From a virus, in the IMG/VR virus record IMGVR_UViG_3300020442_000006, positions 123,494 through 187,493 of that record: 64,000 bases of DNA. The stretch is one strand, 5' to 3'. Positions 17,529 to 29,090 of the stretch are shown here, one piece after another. Each line of letters opens with the position of its first letter. The stretch's first letter is position 1. The translations under genes were made by a program, and so were the position numbers. The notes under the pieces were generated by a model. It made no database searches. It saw only the letters and a list, made by a program, of their open reading frames with translations, and was not told where the DNA came from.

Positions 17529-17739
17529 AAACCTGATTATGTAATGGTGTGTGGGAGGTAGGAATACATTATACCTACAAGTTATGGGAATCGCTAGTGC
17601 GAAAATTAGTACATAACAACAACAGTCATCCTGGTAAGGACTTCTCCGAAGAGCGGGCACCACCCCTGACCGTTTACATTACCCCGCCTAATTCCAACAG
17701 GGTTATTCAGTCACTCCCGTGTCGGTTGATCGGTCCGAC
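17529..17739 (-). other. long structured 5' leader before the 16998-17528 gene
   Basis: About 210 bases lie between a predicted transcription start (near 17739) and the ATG at 17528, with no good open frame. On the minus strand a hairpin GTCGG...CCGAC lies right at the 5' end, a GCGGG...CCCGC pairing spans about 17663-17700, CTC-TTCG-GAG forms a small UUCG hairpin, and GTAGG...CCTAC pairs at 17557-17577. It may be a regulatory RNA or ncRNA. No known family was recognised, and no tRNA cloverleaf fits. Confidence 0.45.
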
Positions 17740-17745
17740 TCCTAT

Positions 17746-24901: not shown

Positions 24902-25342
24902 TCAGTCTATATTATATACCTTTCTCTTGTGACTGTCAGGTACGATTTTGTTAAGTTCAATGGTCAAAAGACCATCTTGGTAATCAACACTGCCAATCTT
25001 TACGTCATCTGAGAGTGTGAATGTCCTAGCAAAGGTACGTTTCGCTACACCTTTGTGTAGGTATCCTCTGTGGTCATCGTTCTTCTCTTTGACTGTCCTG
25101 ATTGATAGGACGTTAGTTTCTGTTGCGACCTCGAACTCTTCCTTCTTGAATCCTGCTAGTGCTACTTCGATCTTCCATTTAGTTTCTGATTCTTTGATCA
25201 GATTGTATGGAGGATAGGATGTTTTCTCGTGATCCGCTAGTGCTCGTGCCTCTAGTCTGTGGAAGATGTTGTCGAGTCCGACTGAGTATGACCTAGATGC
25301 CTGTAGGATTTTATCTAGATCACTTGATGTGAAATGGTTCAT
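24902..25342 (-). CDS. hsp20: small heat shock protein Hsp20
   Basis: A 146-residue alpha-crystallin-type chaperone. After an N-terminal arm (MNHFTSSDLDKILQASRSY), the crystallin domain shows YPPYNLIKESETKWKIEVALAGF, then VLSIRTVKEK, AKRTFARTFTLSDDVKI and YQDGLLTIELNKIVPDS with the conserved GLLTIEL strand. A C-terminal KRKVYNID replaces the classic IxI motif. Hsp20 is part of the T4-like cyanophage core and is thought to stabilise host membranes or assist virion assembly. A perfect late promoter TATAAATA lies 56-63 bases before the ATG, consistent with late expression. The ribosome site AGGAG is good. Confidence 0.95.
   Translation of the reverse strand: MNHFTSSDLDKILQASRSYSVGLDNIFHRLEARALADHEKTSYPPYNLIKESETKWKIEVALAGFKKEEFEVATETNVLSIRTVKEKNDDHRGYLHKGVAKRTFARTFTLSDDVKIGSVDYQDGLLTIELNKIVPDSHKRKVYNID
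24911..24939 (-). promoter_or_regulatory. sigma70-like promoter inside the hsp20 3' end
   Basis: CTGACA (24934-24939), 17-base spacer, TATAAT (24911-24916) on the minus strand. It lies within the last codons of hsp20 and drives the 56-residue membrane protein gene. Confidence 0.75.
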
Positions 25343-25397: not shown

Positions 25398-25405
25398 TAT
25401 TTATA
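25398..25405 (-). promoter_or_regulatory. late promoter TATAAATA for hsp20
   Basis: Exact T4 late octamer on the minus strand, about 56 bases upstream of the hsp20 ATG, in the 161-base divergent region between hsp20 and the plus-strand island. Confidence 0.8.
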
Positions 25406-25464: not shown

Positions 25465-25472
25465 GCTAAATA
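25465..25472 (+). promoter_or_regulatory. late-type promoter variant GCTAAATA for the plus-strand island
   Basis: GCTAAATA on the plus strand, 32 bases before the ATG at 25504, at the spacing seen for other late promoters here. The octamer is identical to those at 1904 and 63099 on the minus strand. Confidence 0.55.
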
Positions 25473-25503: not shown

Positions 25504-26007
25504 ATGAAAAGAGCAGCGATGCTTTTTGTTATGAGTTTGATGACGGCACCTGCATATGCCGATGTTACACATAAATTATCTTCTTCAGTACAACTTACTG
25601 TGGACGCGGCAGCAACAAATGTACAGCGTGTCGGTACAACCTACAGTGTAAGTGGTAACAACGTGACTACACAATACACACCTAGTGGTGGTTCTGCTAC
25701 GTCATCTATTGGTTCCCTTACTGTCAGTTCAGGCGTTGGAGCAATTCCATCATTGACAGCGACCCAAGCAACTGCAGGGGAAAGTTTCAGTTTTACTCAG
25801 TCATTCTATCAAGGTGACGCCATAAGCACTAGCGCACCCAGTTTAGGTGCTGTTGGTAACTACTCCAACCAGACTTCAACTGCTGCAGGTACAAAAGACA
25901 CATTAGCAGGTACCATCGATACCTCAGGAACGATGGCACTAACAGCAGGTGGTGCAGGTACCAGTGCTGTGGGTCAATTTGTCTCCGAGATTACTATCGG
26001 AAACTGA
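25504..26007 (+). CDS. exported Ser/Thr-rich protein A, plus-strand island
   Basis: A 167-residue protein with a clear signal peptide (MKRAAMLFVMSLMTAPAYA, cleavage after AYA). The mature part is low in charge and rich in Ser, Thr, Gly and Ala, with beta-type repeats (TTYSVSGNNVTTQYTPSG). It shares the YSVSGxNV motif with the next protein (26007), so the two are probable paralogues. Export of a phage protein to the periplasm is unusual for a virion part; it could modify the envelope, act in lysis, or be surface-displayed. The stop overlaps the next ATG (TGATG). Confidence 0.75.
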   Translation: MKRAAMLFVMSLMTAPAYADVTHKLSSSVQLTVDAAATNVQRVGTTYSVSGNNVTTQYTPSGGSATSSIGSLTVSSGVGAIPSLTATQATAGESFSFTQSFYQGDAISTSAPSLGAVGNYSNQTSTAAGTKDTLAGTIDTSGTMALTAGGAGTSAVGQFVSEITIGN

Positions 26008-26438
26008 TGAAAAAACTTGTCATCCTGGCACTGTTCACATTCGCTGGAACTCCAGTGATAGCAGTGCCTGTGGTGCCAAATTTTACACAGGGCAGTATGA
26101 CTAGCCACACGGAAACGACTTCCAAGGTGACGGAGACCATAAATTCTATGGACTACGCTACAGGGTGGGTTTATTCGGTAAGTGGTACAAACGTAAAACA
26201 CGATGGTGCATCTATGACACCAGGTGTTCAAAGTGAAAATCAAACTATTGATGGTGTGACTTCAAAATGGACAGGATTAAACGTAAATCAAAAACCAAAC
26301 TGGACACAGAACAATGTGGGTCAGGCATTCCAGTTCACAGAAACCTATTCAGGACCTGGTTTGCAAAATCAAACAATTATTCAGAGAGTGACGGAGGTTA
26401 CAAGCGTAACCGACACTACAAGTATCTTCCAACAGTAG
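26007..26438 (+). CDS. exported protein B, paralogue of A
   Basis: A 143-residue protein with a signal peptide (MKKLVILALFTFAGTPVIA). The mature part has Thr-rich beta repeats (SHTETTSKVTETINSM), the shared WVYSVSGTNVKHDG motif, and FQFTETYSGPG which parallels FSFTQSFYQGD in protein A. It is translationally coupled to A. Function unknown. Its last 170 bases overlap the start of the third frame in another phase. Confidence 0.7.
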   Translation: MKKLVILALFTFAGTPVIAVPVVPNFTQGSMTSHTETTSKVTETINSMDYATGWVYSVSGTNVKHDGASMTPGVQSENQTIDGVTSKWTGLNVNQKPNWTQNNVGQAFQFTETYSGPGLQNQTIIQRVTEVTSVTDTTSIFQQ

Positions 26439-27286
26439 GAGCAGTTGCTCTATCTCTATTGTCAACACCACTACGTGCAGAGACTGTTGGTGGTGTATCT
26501 GCTACTGCAGCGCCCATCGCAAATAGCAGTGGCTCAGTGACTAATCAGGCAATTCAGGTGTTACAAGGACCATATATTACCAACACTTATGGTAATGGTA
26601 TTCAGTGTCAAGGTAGTACACTTAACATAACACCATTTGTCACTGGTAGTGCATCTGGACAAAAACCTTGGGAAGATCAGTGGTGGGATAATGTATATGA
26701 TATGCGAGATCTAAATGACGATGGAGCACCAGACAATCCTGGGTCTGTGTTATATCAAGTTCCCGTAAGGACAGGACAGAAAGATACATATAACCTATCT
26801 CTTGGTGTAAGTGCTACGTGGTCTATTCCACTTGACAAGAAAGCACAAGATCAATGTAAGAGAGCAGCGACTACACAGAATGATATGCAGAGACAACTAA
26901 TTGCTAACAAGCGATTAGATTTTGAGATCGCGAGACTCAAGAATTGTGGAGAATTGATGAAGGCAGGAATTATGTTCAAACCTGGGTCGAAATATTATGC
27001 TGTATGCTCCGATGTATTGGTTATGAATGTGAATCATATACCACAACATAACCACTTACTTCAACAGTTGCCTACCTCTTCTTCATCTTCCGAAGTTCTC
27101 GAAGTGCCCGAGTCCTCATCCTCTGGTGATCTTGACGGTCCCGAAGTGACTGAAGTTTCGGAACCCGTCCAAACGCAATCCCAATCTTCTGAACCGTCTT
27201 CTTCACAGCAGGTTTCACCACTTTCAGAAGAAGATCGGCAAGCGGTTTTGCGAGCAGTGCAGAGGTGGCAGCAACTGCGGCGATAG
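26267..27286 (+). CDS. exported protein C with Ser/Glu-rich tail
   Basis: Up to 339 residues from ATG 26267, but the signal-like segment (YLPTVGAVALSLLSTPLRAE) lies about 50-70 residues in, so the true start may be later or non-canonical. The mature part contains GPYITNTYGNGIQCQGSTLNI, WEDQWWDNVYD, an acidic DLNDDGAPDN loop, and two further Cys (KRLDFEIARLKNCGELMKAG and YAVCSDV). The tail is a Ser/Glu/Pro-rich run ending QAVLRAVQRWQQLRR. The 5' part overlaps gene B by 172 bases, and the 3' part runs antisense to the 27072-27839 gene for 215 bases. Likely envelope-targeted. Function unknown. Confidence 0.65.
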   Translation: MDRIKRKSKTKLDTEQCGSGIPVHRNLFRTWFAKSNNYSESDGGYKRNRHYKYLPTVGAVALSLLSTPLRAETVGGVSATAAPIANSSGSVTNQAIQVLQGPYITNTYGNGIQCQGSTLNITPFVTGSASGQKPWEDQWWDNVYDMRDLNDDGAPDNPGSVLYQVPVRTGQKDTYNLSLGVSATWSIPLDKKAQDQCKRAATTQNDMQRQLIANKRLDFEIARLKNCGELMKAGIMFKPGSKYYAVCSDVLVMNVNHIPQHNHLLQQLPTSSSSSEVLEVPESSSSGDLDGPEVTEVSEPVQTQSQSSEPSSSQQVSPLSEEDRQAVLRAVQRWQQLRR

Positions 27287-27839
27287 ATCCTGTAGTAACT
27301 ACTAACCCTGCTGAAGGGATGTTTTCTACAATCTGTTGTTGAAGATTAAGTTTCTCTGTTACTTCAATACATTCTTTGCCTACGAGTTCGTAAGCAACAA
27401 TCTTTTTATTACCCTCTAGGATCTTTCCTATGGGGTTTTTTAATTCTTGTGCCCTAGTAGGACATTTTGGAATCTCTGTCTTAGGGATTTTTGTCTCAGG
27501 AACATTTAATTCTGGTTTCTGATTCTCAAACTTAGGTGGTTCTACTGGTGGTCCAGAGAGTGTCAACCCTTCAGGACTATAGTCAAGAGGATTGAACGAA
27601 GGAGTTGATGCATCACAATACACCCTCGTTCCTTTAGGGTCATCCTCTGTGAGGTTTTTATTCTTACCATCATCTGCTTCGTGTGCCTCTACACATCCAG
27701 GGATGTTGATGATAGGCACACCAACCTGTGTAGTAACAGGAGGGTAGATCGGTATTGCCTGTGGTGGATTGTTTAACCAGTCAAACGTCCTAATGGGAGG
27801 TATGTCTAGGTTTCTCACACCGATCTCAGGGATTTCCAT
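27072..27839 (-). CDS. proline-rich protein with C-terminal membrane segment and basic tail
   Basis: A 255-residue protein. The N-terminal half is Pro/Ile-rich (MEIPEIGVRNLDIPPIRTFDW, IPIYPPVTTQVGVPIINIP) with Cys at CVEAHEADD and VYCDAS. A membrane segment follows (GLVVTTGSIAAVAATSALLA), then a basic helical tail (VVKPAVKKTVQKIG and LRELRKMKKR). I recall similar proteins in cyanophages near the plus-strand island. The last 215 bases are antisense to protein C. The basic tail suggests a cytoplasmic membrane-bound anchor. No enzyme motif. Confidence 0.65.
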   Translation of the reverse strand: MEIPEIGVRNLDIPPIRTFDWLNNPPQAIPIYPPVTTQVGVPIINIPGCVEAHEADDGKNKNLTEDDPKGTRVYCDASTPSFNPLDYSPEGLTLSGPPVEPPKFENQKPELNVPETKIPKTEIPKCPTRAQELKNPIGKILEGNKKIVAYELVGKECIEVTEKLNLQQQIVENIPSAGLVVTTGSIAAVAATSALLAKPLADLLLKVVKPAVKKTVQKIGIAFGRVPKLQSLRDRQDHQRMRTRALRELRKMKKR

Positions 27840-27841
27840 AA

Positions 27842-28393
27842 TTACTCAAGCATTTCTTCTTCGCAATCTGCTAATTGTTGTGCGATTTCTCCACCGATGT
27901 CACCACCTTTGTTACCTGCAAAGAGAGCAACACCACCTGCTAGGACTGGACCTACAAATGGGATACCTGATAAAGCGGGAGCAGCAGCAGTTCCGATACT
28001 AGCGCCGATCACTGCACCTGTCTGTTCTCCACCACCTGCCGCCTTGATACACTCGATCTTTTTGGCAGTTAGGACCGACTTTCCCACAGCACCTCCACCC
28101 GTATGGCGAGCACCATCCATTGTGTACTGGTTCTCTTTTCTGATTGTAGATTCACCACCGATACCAAAGAATCCGTTGGTCTTATCAATGAACGTATTCT
28201 CTGCCATCACCTTTGGATCGTTACCTTTGTAGGTTATGCGATACCCATCCTTCTTAACCTCAGCACTGTAGGAACTATAAGGACCTACAGGTGGGTTAAG
28301 AGTTGGAAGAGTTGATTTGTTCGCTATGATACCGATCATTCCTAGATGTGAAATACCTAAGATAACACCTGCACTAGCGTAAAACCATTTCAT
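27842..28393 (-). CDS. membrane protein with glycine-zipper segment
   Basis: A 183-residue protein. The N-terminus is a signal or membrane anchor (MKWFYASAGVILGISHLGMIG). The middle is soluble (YSAEVKKDGYRITYKGNDP and ENTFIDKTNGFFG). The C-terminal third is a glycine-zipper-like hydrophobic region (GAVIGASIGTAAAPALSG and VGPVLAGGVALFAG) that could span or perforate a membrane. It overlaps its upstream neighbour by 4 bases. The glycine-zipper layout is seen in pore and outer-membrane proteins; a lysis or DNA-entry role is only a possibility. Confidence 0.6.
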   Translation of the reverse strand: MKWFYASAGVILGISHLGMIGIIANKSTLPTLNPPVGPYSSYSAEVKKDGYRITYKGNDPKVMAENTFIDKTNGFFGIGGESTIRKENQYTMDGARHTGGGAVGKSVLTAKKIECIKAAGGGEQTGAVIGASIGTAAAPALSGIPFVGPVLAGGVALFAGNKGGDIGGEIAQQLADCEEEMLE

Positions 28394-28644
28394 TTTCCTA
28401 GAGGATTAGAGGGAGCGGGTAGACCAACAGGAGGAATAGCAGGACCACCGATGTTAGGGATCTTAGAATCAACAAGACCAGGGACCATACTGCCCACTGC
28501 TTCAGCGACAAAACCTGCAAGTCTTTCTCTTGATCTTTCTGCAAGTGCTTCTCTATTCACCCAAGTGTAAACACTTACACCAGTGATAGTACCTGCAAAA
28601 ACAAAGTTGAACACAACGAATGTGTTAATTACTTTTTGGAACAT
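28390..28644 (-). CDS. small single-span membrane protein
   Basis: An 84-residue protein, MFQKVINTFVVFNFVFAGTITG, with one membrane helix at residues 6-28, then a charged linker (NREALAERSRERLAG) and a Pro/Gly-rich tail (IPNIGGPAIPPVGLPAP). The Pro-rich tail resembles that of the 27072 protein. It is coupled to the next gene by a 4-base overlap. Function unknown. Confidence 0.6.
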   Translation of the reverse strand: MFQKVINTFVVFNFVFAGTITGVSVYTWVNREALAERSRERLAGFVAEAVGSMVPGLVDSKIPNIGGPAIPPVGLPAPSNPLGK

Positions 28645-28646
28645 AA

Positions 28647-29090
28647 TTACATCTCATACTTTTTAGGGTCAGTTTCGGTTGTTATTTTCAAAGGTGCTTG
28701 TTCGACACGGATGATCTGTGCAGGAGCAGTTTGTGATGCTGCCTGAATCAATCTTTCCATATCTGCCTTTGTGATGCCCCCACCGTTCGGAGCATCTTTC
28801 CCATTACCATTGTTCTTCTTGGCGGTCTGGACCCCGAAAGTCGCTAAAACCCCAGTGAAGACGCTGGCTATGAAAGTTGGATCGAGATCCTGTTCGGGAA
28901 AGTTGAGTGCCTTTGGCAAGTCAACGTACGCTAAAGTGAGGATACCACCAGACCATACAAGAATACCAAGTCTCACGAAAGTAGATAGAATCGCGAGTTG
29001 TTCTTCCTTATCTTCTGATGCCTCCTTCAAGCGACCAAAGAAACCTTTGGGTTTCTCCTCAGGTTGAGGTTTTTTCTTTTCCTCTGCCAT
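28647..29090 (-). CDS. two-span membrane protein, holin-like topology
   Basis: A 147-residue protein with a charged cytoplasmic N-terminus (MAEEKKKPQPEEKPKGFFG), two hydrophobic spans (LSTFVRLGILVWSGGILTLA and PTFIASVFTGVLATFGV), and a polar C-terminus with an NGNGKDAPNGGG linker and a helix. Two spans with charged ends is a layout shared with class II holins, but many phage membrane proteins look alike. It heads the four-gene membrane cluster opposite the exported island. Conserved in cyanophages as I recall it. Function unknown. Confidence 0.6.
   Translation of the reverse strand: MAEEKKKPQPEEKPKGFFGRLKEASEDKEEQLAILSTFVRLGILVWSGGILTLAYVDLPKALNFPEQDLDPTFIASVFTGVLATFGVQTAKKNNGNGKDAPNGGGITKADMERLIQAASQTAPAQIIRVEQAPLKITTETDPKKYEM

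Follow-up and report, generated by a model that had tools for sequence, protein, structure and literature searches.

The stretch of DNA analyzed here, referred to below as the window, comprises 64,000 nucleotides of a 187-kb T4-like marine cyanophage record (IMG/VR IMGVR_UViG_3300020442_000006, positions 123,494 to 187,493). It contains three adjacent genes, A, B and C, that form an island on the plus strand, while the other confident genes nearby lie on the minus strand, as an earlier note made from the letters of this DNA had described. The same note took all three products to be exported and reported a same-strand overlap of B and C; we find export features in the sequences of A, B and C, and the overlap measures exactly 172 nt. 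Genes A and B meet in an ATGA junction. The features discussed in the text are the following (all coordinates refer to the window):

24902-25342, minus strand: hsp20, which flanks the A-B-C island on one side
25466-25472, plus strand: CTAAATA, a late promoter motif of T4 type, ahead of A
25504-26007, plus strand: gene A, predicted exported beta-rich protein with a signal peptide to about Ala19 (phrog_564; T4-GC 237)
26007-26438, plus strand: gene B, predicted exported protein with the signal peptide MKKLVILALFTFAGTPVIA (DUF6322 / phrog_650)
26253-26259, plus strand: putative ribosome-binding site of C within B, GGTGTGA in the window and GGAGTGA in most relatives
26267-27286, plus strand: gene C, predicted exported protein (phrog_848/1755; T4-GC 235), with its ATG at 26267 inside B
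26267-26438, plus strand: dual-coding overlap of B and C (172 nt), C being read in the -1 frame, one base behind B
26267-26425, plus strand: N-terminal segment of C, basic and hydrophilic, 53 residues, absent in loci with the order B-endonuclease-C
26426-26479, plus strand: signal-peptide core and c-region of C (LPTVGAVALSLLSTPLRA), spanning the stop codon of B, with predicted cleavage between A71 and E72
26480-27283, plus strand: mature C, with four cysteines and the near-invariant N-terminal block GGVSATA-P-ANSSGSVTNQAIQVLQGPYITN-YG-G-I-CQG
27072-27839, minus strand: gene D, convergent with C (phrog_570; T4-GC 234), its 3' end overlapping the tail of C by 215 nt

DNA matching this region is present in 400 public phage records and C is encoded in 441, and the records with either are all named as Synechococcus, Prochlorococcus, cyanophage, marine or uncultured phages. 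A scan of GTDB returned eight further loci with C (L389-L396) in bacterial or archaeal assemblies (Formosa, Nonlabens, Lewinella, an archaeal MAG and others). These are probably cyanophage-like contigs, that is, mis-binned or contaminating phage DNA in MAGs, single cells and assemblies, and we rejected them as host homologs of C. Among six records that we examined in detail, S-RSM4 lacks an annotated C, and S-SM2 and S-8S55 lack an annotated B.

For the comparative analysis, we collected ~390 loci, extracted B and C, and codon-aligned B. Loci at <90% identity were retained as 130 representatives; these share ancestry, and counts over them are not counts of independent events. At one locus (L190), the end of B appears to shift frame by one base, so that B runs into the region of C; this is likely a sequencing or assembly error.

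Families and neighborhood of the three genes

B is a full member of the DUF6322 family (PF19847), with an E-value of 2e-43 and 147.3 bits against a gathering cut-off of 30.6, whereas A reaches 16.3 bits and stays below this cut-off. The motif YSVSGxNV, previously pointed out as shared by A and B, is indeed found in both, and the two proteins are homologous over 57 columns around it (profile-profile probability 90%, E 1.5e-6); phrog_564, the family of A, also matches B (E 2.6e-4). Profile-profile comparison related C to neither of them, and the suggestion that the island encodes exported paralogs thus stands for A and B and fails for C. DUF6322 and PHROGs 564, 650, 848 and 1755 are all descriptive families with no assigned function, of which phrog_848 takes in the segment of C encoded by the overlap and phrog_1755 does not. 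Homologs of A are labeled "OMP1 protein" in some records.

The arrangement of these genes is well conserved. A immediately precedes B, in the same orientation, in 118/118 loci, and D follows C on the opposite strand in 116 of 119, while hsp20 is a neighbor in only 21 of 101. As A, B, C and the convergent D are constant and the hsp20 neighbor is not, the unit appears to move as a block. Sullivan et al. (2010; PMC3037559) describe a five-gene mobile cassette (T4-GC 218, 219, 234, 235 and 237) present in 15 of 16 cyanophages and absent from S-PM2, and propose that its genes are functionally linked. These are the same genes, since in S-SM2 records the labels are GC 237 for A, GC 235 for C and GC 234 for D; besides A and D, the window also contains a phrog_568 "plasmid stability" gene, and a gene of this kind often accompanies the cassette. 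The antisense overlap between the tail of C and D occurs in 100 of 121 loci, with modes at ~110 and 215-230 nt. In the window, the part of C that overlaps D (27072-27286) is rich in Ser, Pro and Gln.

Upstream of A, the late promoter motif CTAAATA or NATAAATA is found 20-38 nt before the ATG in 94 of 107 relatives, against 5.0 expected from shuffling. Late T4-type genes are characterized by a TATAAATA-like promoter at a fixed distance before the operon, and the motif ahead of A agrees with this in most relatives. The three genes would then make up a late operon encoding secreted proteins, with expression presumably late in infection. Two other elements were noted in the window: the exact late-promoter sequence TATAAATA upstream of hsp20 (25398-25405, minus strand) and a manA RNA motif (17548-17740, minus strand; Rfam RF01745, 123 bits).

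The start codon of C and the dual-coding overlap

C had been said to lack a good start codon near its signal segment. This is literally true, and in the window the only in-frame ATG lies 53 codons ahead of the hydrophobic segment. Throughout the relatives, C frames open with M(D/E) where B reads x-W-(T/N). In representatives with this common motif, the B codon before the Trp ends in A in 100/100, which preserves the ATG of C. This codon may be TCA (39/39), ACA (41/41), CAA (12/12) or AAA (8/8); the residue of B thus varies and the third base never does, pointing to the ATG of C as what is being kept. GG is found at -14/-13 relative to this ATG in all 100 representatives, and the Val codon of B is GTG in 99 of them, with a third base that is synonymous in B. 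GG(A)GTGA, 8-14 nt upstream of the ATG, is thus a candidate Shine-Dalgarno-like site of C, embedded in B. A point against it is that the GGTGTGA of the window is weaker than the common GGAGTGA.

The frame of C is free of stop codons through the overlap in all 130 representatives; the other alternative frame, by contrast, contains 4.6 stops on average and is open in a single representative (1/130). Given the residues of B and its codon usage, the median probability of an open overlap is ~0.05 per sequence, and we rejected chance openness on the basis of both this synonymous-codon model and the other alternative frame. The onset of the constraint can be located from at-risk sites, the third positions of B where a T creates a stop in the frame of C: T is present at 440 of 1,220 such sites upstream of the ATG versus 0 of 924 from the ATG on. 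The switch coincides with the ATG of C, and the closest upstream stop in this frame mostly lies 6-11 codons before it. Within the overlap, wobble positions show greater conservation than they do upstream. In addition, the part of C that is encoded by the last 22 codons of B has a net charge of +3.8, versus +0.25 in synonymous shuffles that preserve the open frame.

A group of 28 representatives related to S-SM2 lacks the usual Trp. In this group the frame of C begins 36 codons earlier, at the Trp in TG-W of B, and the Gly codon before this Trp is GGA in 28 of 28, versus only 1 of 15 in other lineages that have the same Trp. The at-risk sites follow the same displacement, with T at 76/200 upstream and 0/513 downstream of the moved start. 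The S-SM2 type is an independent replicate, in which the start has moved upstream and the constraint with it. A weak point is that no clear Shine-Dalgarno site is visible at the start of the S-SM2 type.

These observations also bear on the possibility that C has no start of its own and that ribosomes translating B slip by -1 within the overlap to produce a B-C fusion. The whole overlap is open in the frame of C, which is the -1 frame of B, in agreement with slippage; however, slippage needs neither an invariant ATG, nor an embedded ribosome-binding site, nor a switch in constraint at that ATG. Programmed -1 frameshifting is recognized by a conserved slippery site, a fusion product and the lack of an independent start, whereas here an independent ATG and ribosome-binding site are kept and inspection by eye of the codon-aligned overlaps revealed no conserved X_XXY_YYZ heptamer. 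Moreover, C is encoded apart from B in the loci where an endonuclease gene lies between the two (see below). We consider slippage extremely improbable.

The signal peptide of C and the loci with a homing endonuclease

In our own scan, all 130 representatives of C have a hydrophobic core followed by a small or aliphatic residue at -3 and Ala at -1 before E(T)VGG, in keeping with the pattern of Sec/SPase I exported proteins (basic n-region, hydrophobic core, small residues at -3/-1). Four cysteines are present in 129 of 130. The h-region starts 49-62 residues past the Met (92-102 for representatives of the S-SM2 type), and it is a point against this assignment that 50-100 residues ahead of a signal-peptide core are unusual. 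The long basic N-terminal segment would nonetheless lead into a Sec signal peptide cleaved at the conserved site between A and E(T)VGG, and we infer that C is translated, exported and cleaved. The first ~40 residues of mature C (26480-26610) are almost invariant, while over the whole protein relatives are only 51-93% identical to the C of the window.

In a few loci, B and C are separated. In L049 and L247 (which are on the same contig), L142 and L373, an endonuclease gene on the opposite strand sits between them; the end of B is intact and C has a short n-region, for example MYLLKIFIHNKSYKYLLAVILGLTPNASLA/ETVGG (the slash marks the predicted cleavage). The isolate RB11-B has the same B-endonuclease-C order, and its C starts with MTLRKLFSLNRYFITLFLICQHANPSLA/ETVGG, a classical signal peptide of 28 residues. 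The inserts of L049 and L142 are alike and may derive from one shared event, while the insertion in L373 looks separate. Pfam did not recognize the endonuclease of the L049 insert. An intron was considered for this locus and rejected, as no Rfam intron was found and the insert is an opposite-strand endonuclease gene.

Homologs in which C starts cleanly after B, which the earlier note had named as evidence against its proposal for how C begins, therefore do exist, in these three metagenomic loci (L049 and L247 counted once) and in RB11-B. As far as can be read from the sequences, they show that C can do without the long N-terminal segment and keeps its signal peptide; they do not speak against a real overlap elsewhere.

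These loci are also relevant to the idea that C begins near its signal segment, either from a rare start codon or by re-initiation past the stop of B, with the upstream open frame being incidental. A short n-region is conventional and is what the endonuclease loci possess, and in many loci the n-region immediately ahead of the core is basic. On the other hand, inspection by eye found no conserved start-like codon in the ~25 codons leading up to the core, the stop of B falls within the hydrophobic core, and this idea leaves unexplained the ATG itself, its ribosome-binding site and the avoidance of stops from the upstream ATG onward. It is thus very unlikely.

We conclude that C is in all probability translated from the ordinary ATG at 26267 with its own ribosome-binding site, both buried in B, and that the overlap is read in two frames. 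The re-initiation, frameshifting or rare start proposed previously for C give way to an ordinary ATG that is kept in 100 of 100 representatives with the common motif and is shifted yet kept in 28 of 28 of the S-SM2 type. Taken with the ribosome-binding site, the onset of constraint at the ATG and the endonuclease-separated loci, this invariant and movable start makes all three mechanisms unlikely origins of C.

An embedded ATG of C may also explain why the overlap is so long. The last ~55 codons of B (as many as ~95 in one clade) would be read twice, once for the C-terminus of B and once for the long basic N-terminal segment of C. In the frame of C, an ATG requires a codon of B ending in A followed by one starting with TG (Trp or Cys), and the conserved end of B (TEVTSVTDTTSIFxQ) offers no Trp or Cys site for it. 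The start would thus be trapped at the nearest suitable upstream Trp, and selection from start to core would act only for a frame that is open, basic and poor in acidic residues. Where a homing endonuclease splits B from C, C would gain an ordinary short signal peptide. We infer that the overlap results from this constraint on where an ATG can arise, an explanation with which the longer form of the S-SM2 type and the short forms of the endonuclease loci both agree. The long N-terminal segment of C looks like a passenger of the overlap, held open and basic.

Possible roles at the host envelope

The late motif, secretion, the linkage of the genes and the absence of the cassette from S-PM2 favor an accessory late role at the envelope, perhaps in lysis. 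We tentatively propose that late in infection A, B and C work in the periplasm or outer membrane, where they may most likely remodel the envelope or help the cell to open.

Several genes beside D (27842-29090, minus strand) look membrane-associated. A phrog_605 gene near D has an N-terminal hydrophobic segment and a Gly/Ala-rich stretch, the phrog_568 "plasmid stability" gene has one hydrophobic segment, and a DUF6450 protein has holin-like hydrophobic segments. Together with A-D, these neighbors possibly constitute a lysis or envelope cassette.

Superinfection-exclusion genes are often secreted, accessory and located in mobile cassettes. A, B and C share these traits, being predicted to be secreted, missing from S-PM2 and part of a mobile cassette, and could constitute an early exclusion or envelope-masking system. 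Yet the T4-type late motif ahead of A in the great majority of relatives does not suit an early function, and no known exclusion family was matched by A, B or C in PHROG and Pfam searches; we regard this role as unlikely.

The three proteins could also help to build or decorate the virion, or an extracellular structure formed after export. The late motif agrees with this, as do weak similarities of the B model to collar/tail proteins of phages and to the long beta-hairpins of pore-forming proteins, but the corresponding Z values (~3-4) are below a meaningful level. To our knowledge, virion proteins of tailed phages assemble in the cytoplasm and have no Sec signals, whereas A, B and C carry predicted ones. 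A structural role of this kind is, in our view, rather doubtful.

The B model comes from AlphaFold2 predictions made on alignments from which rows of annotated phage records were left out. For B the pLDDT was 73, one of the five models scoring well above the rest, and for mature C it was 58, which gives no usable fold. The model of C is least confident over the near-invariant first ~40 mature residues. Matches in the PDB are weak (best Foldseek E 0.018; VIA Z <=4.5), and the best BFVD matches are uncharacterized phage proteins, mostly from cyanophages. Matches of B to designed WRAP-T proteins among PDB sequences were judged to be due to chance.

A close known parallel in gene architecture is provided by the overlapped two-component spanins of P2, T5 and Jersey, neighboring exported proteins whose genes overlap out of frame by ~70-155 bp (PMC6139136). 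B and C are likewise neighboring genes for predicted exported proteins with an out-of-frame overlap, and A-C could be a spanin-like system that disrupts the outer membrane. The late motif, the export features, and the predicted long helix and four cysteines of C are all compatible with this, and a homing endonuclease splits the pair in some relatives, as it splits an overlapped spanin pair in relatives of the T5 family (PMC6139136). The likeness extends to annotation, as gene callers miss one gene of overlapped spanin pairs (PMC6139136) and existing annotations miss B or C in some records. However, the lipobox [LVI][ASTVI][GAS]C expected of an o-spanin is absent from C in 127 of 130 representatives and from B in 129 of 130, and neither the signal peptides of A and B in the window nor the signal core of C contain a Cys. 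Unlike spanins, A-C have no lipobox and no demonstrated i-spanin topology in the inner membrane, comprise three genes and match no spanin family; moreover, the B-C overlap encodes the long n-region of C, whereas in spanins it encodes a periplasmic domain. A-C thus fall outside the two-component spanins by the lipobox criterion, and a spanin-like system is improbable.

More speculatively, the A-C genes of most marine T4-like cyanophages might encode a new, non-spanin module for lysis or envelope opening, made late and directed at the cyanobacterial outer envelope, in which A and B would form beta-rich oligomers and C a disulfide-bonded helical partner, with the supply of C tied to that of B through the buried start. 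We see this detailed version as a fairly long shot.

The accessible part of Sullivan et al. (2010; PMC3037559) presents the cassette with no mention of export, the B-C overlap, the embedded start, a late promoter or endonuclease-separated forms, and our search of the open-access literature found no report of the overlap, the embedded start or the separated forms. With B and C, a long dual-coding overlap can be followed clearly by comparison in very abundant viruses of the ocean: the start codon, the ribosome-binding site and the frame constraint are resolved at the level of single codons, one lineage has moved both the start and the constraint, and at least two forms have been released from the overlap. 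The analysis also corrects the annotation of B and C in cyanophage records. Finally, it turns a near-universal and ignored cyanophage cassette into a testable candidate for a secreted system of late infection, in a group of phages with poorly known lysis genes.
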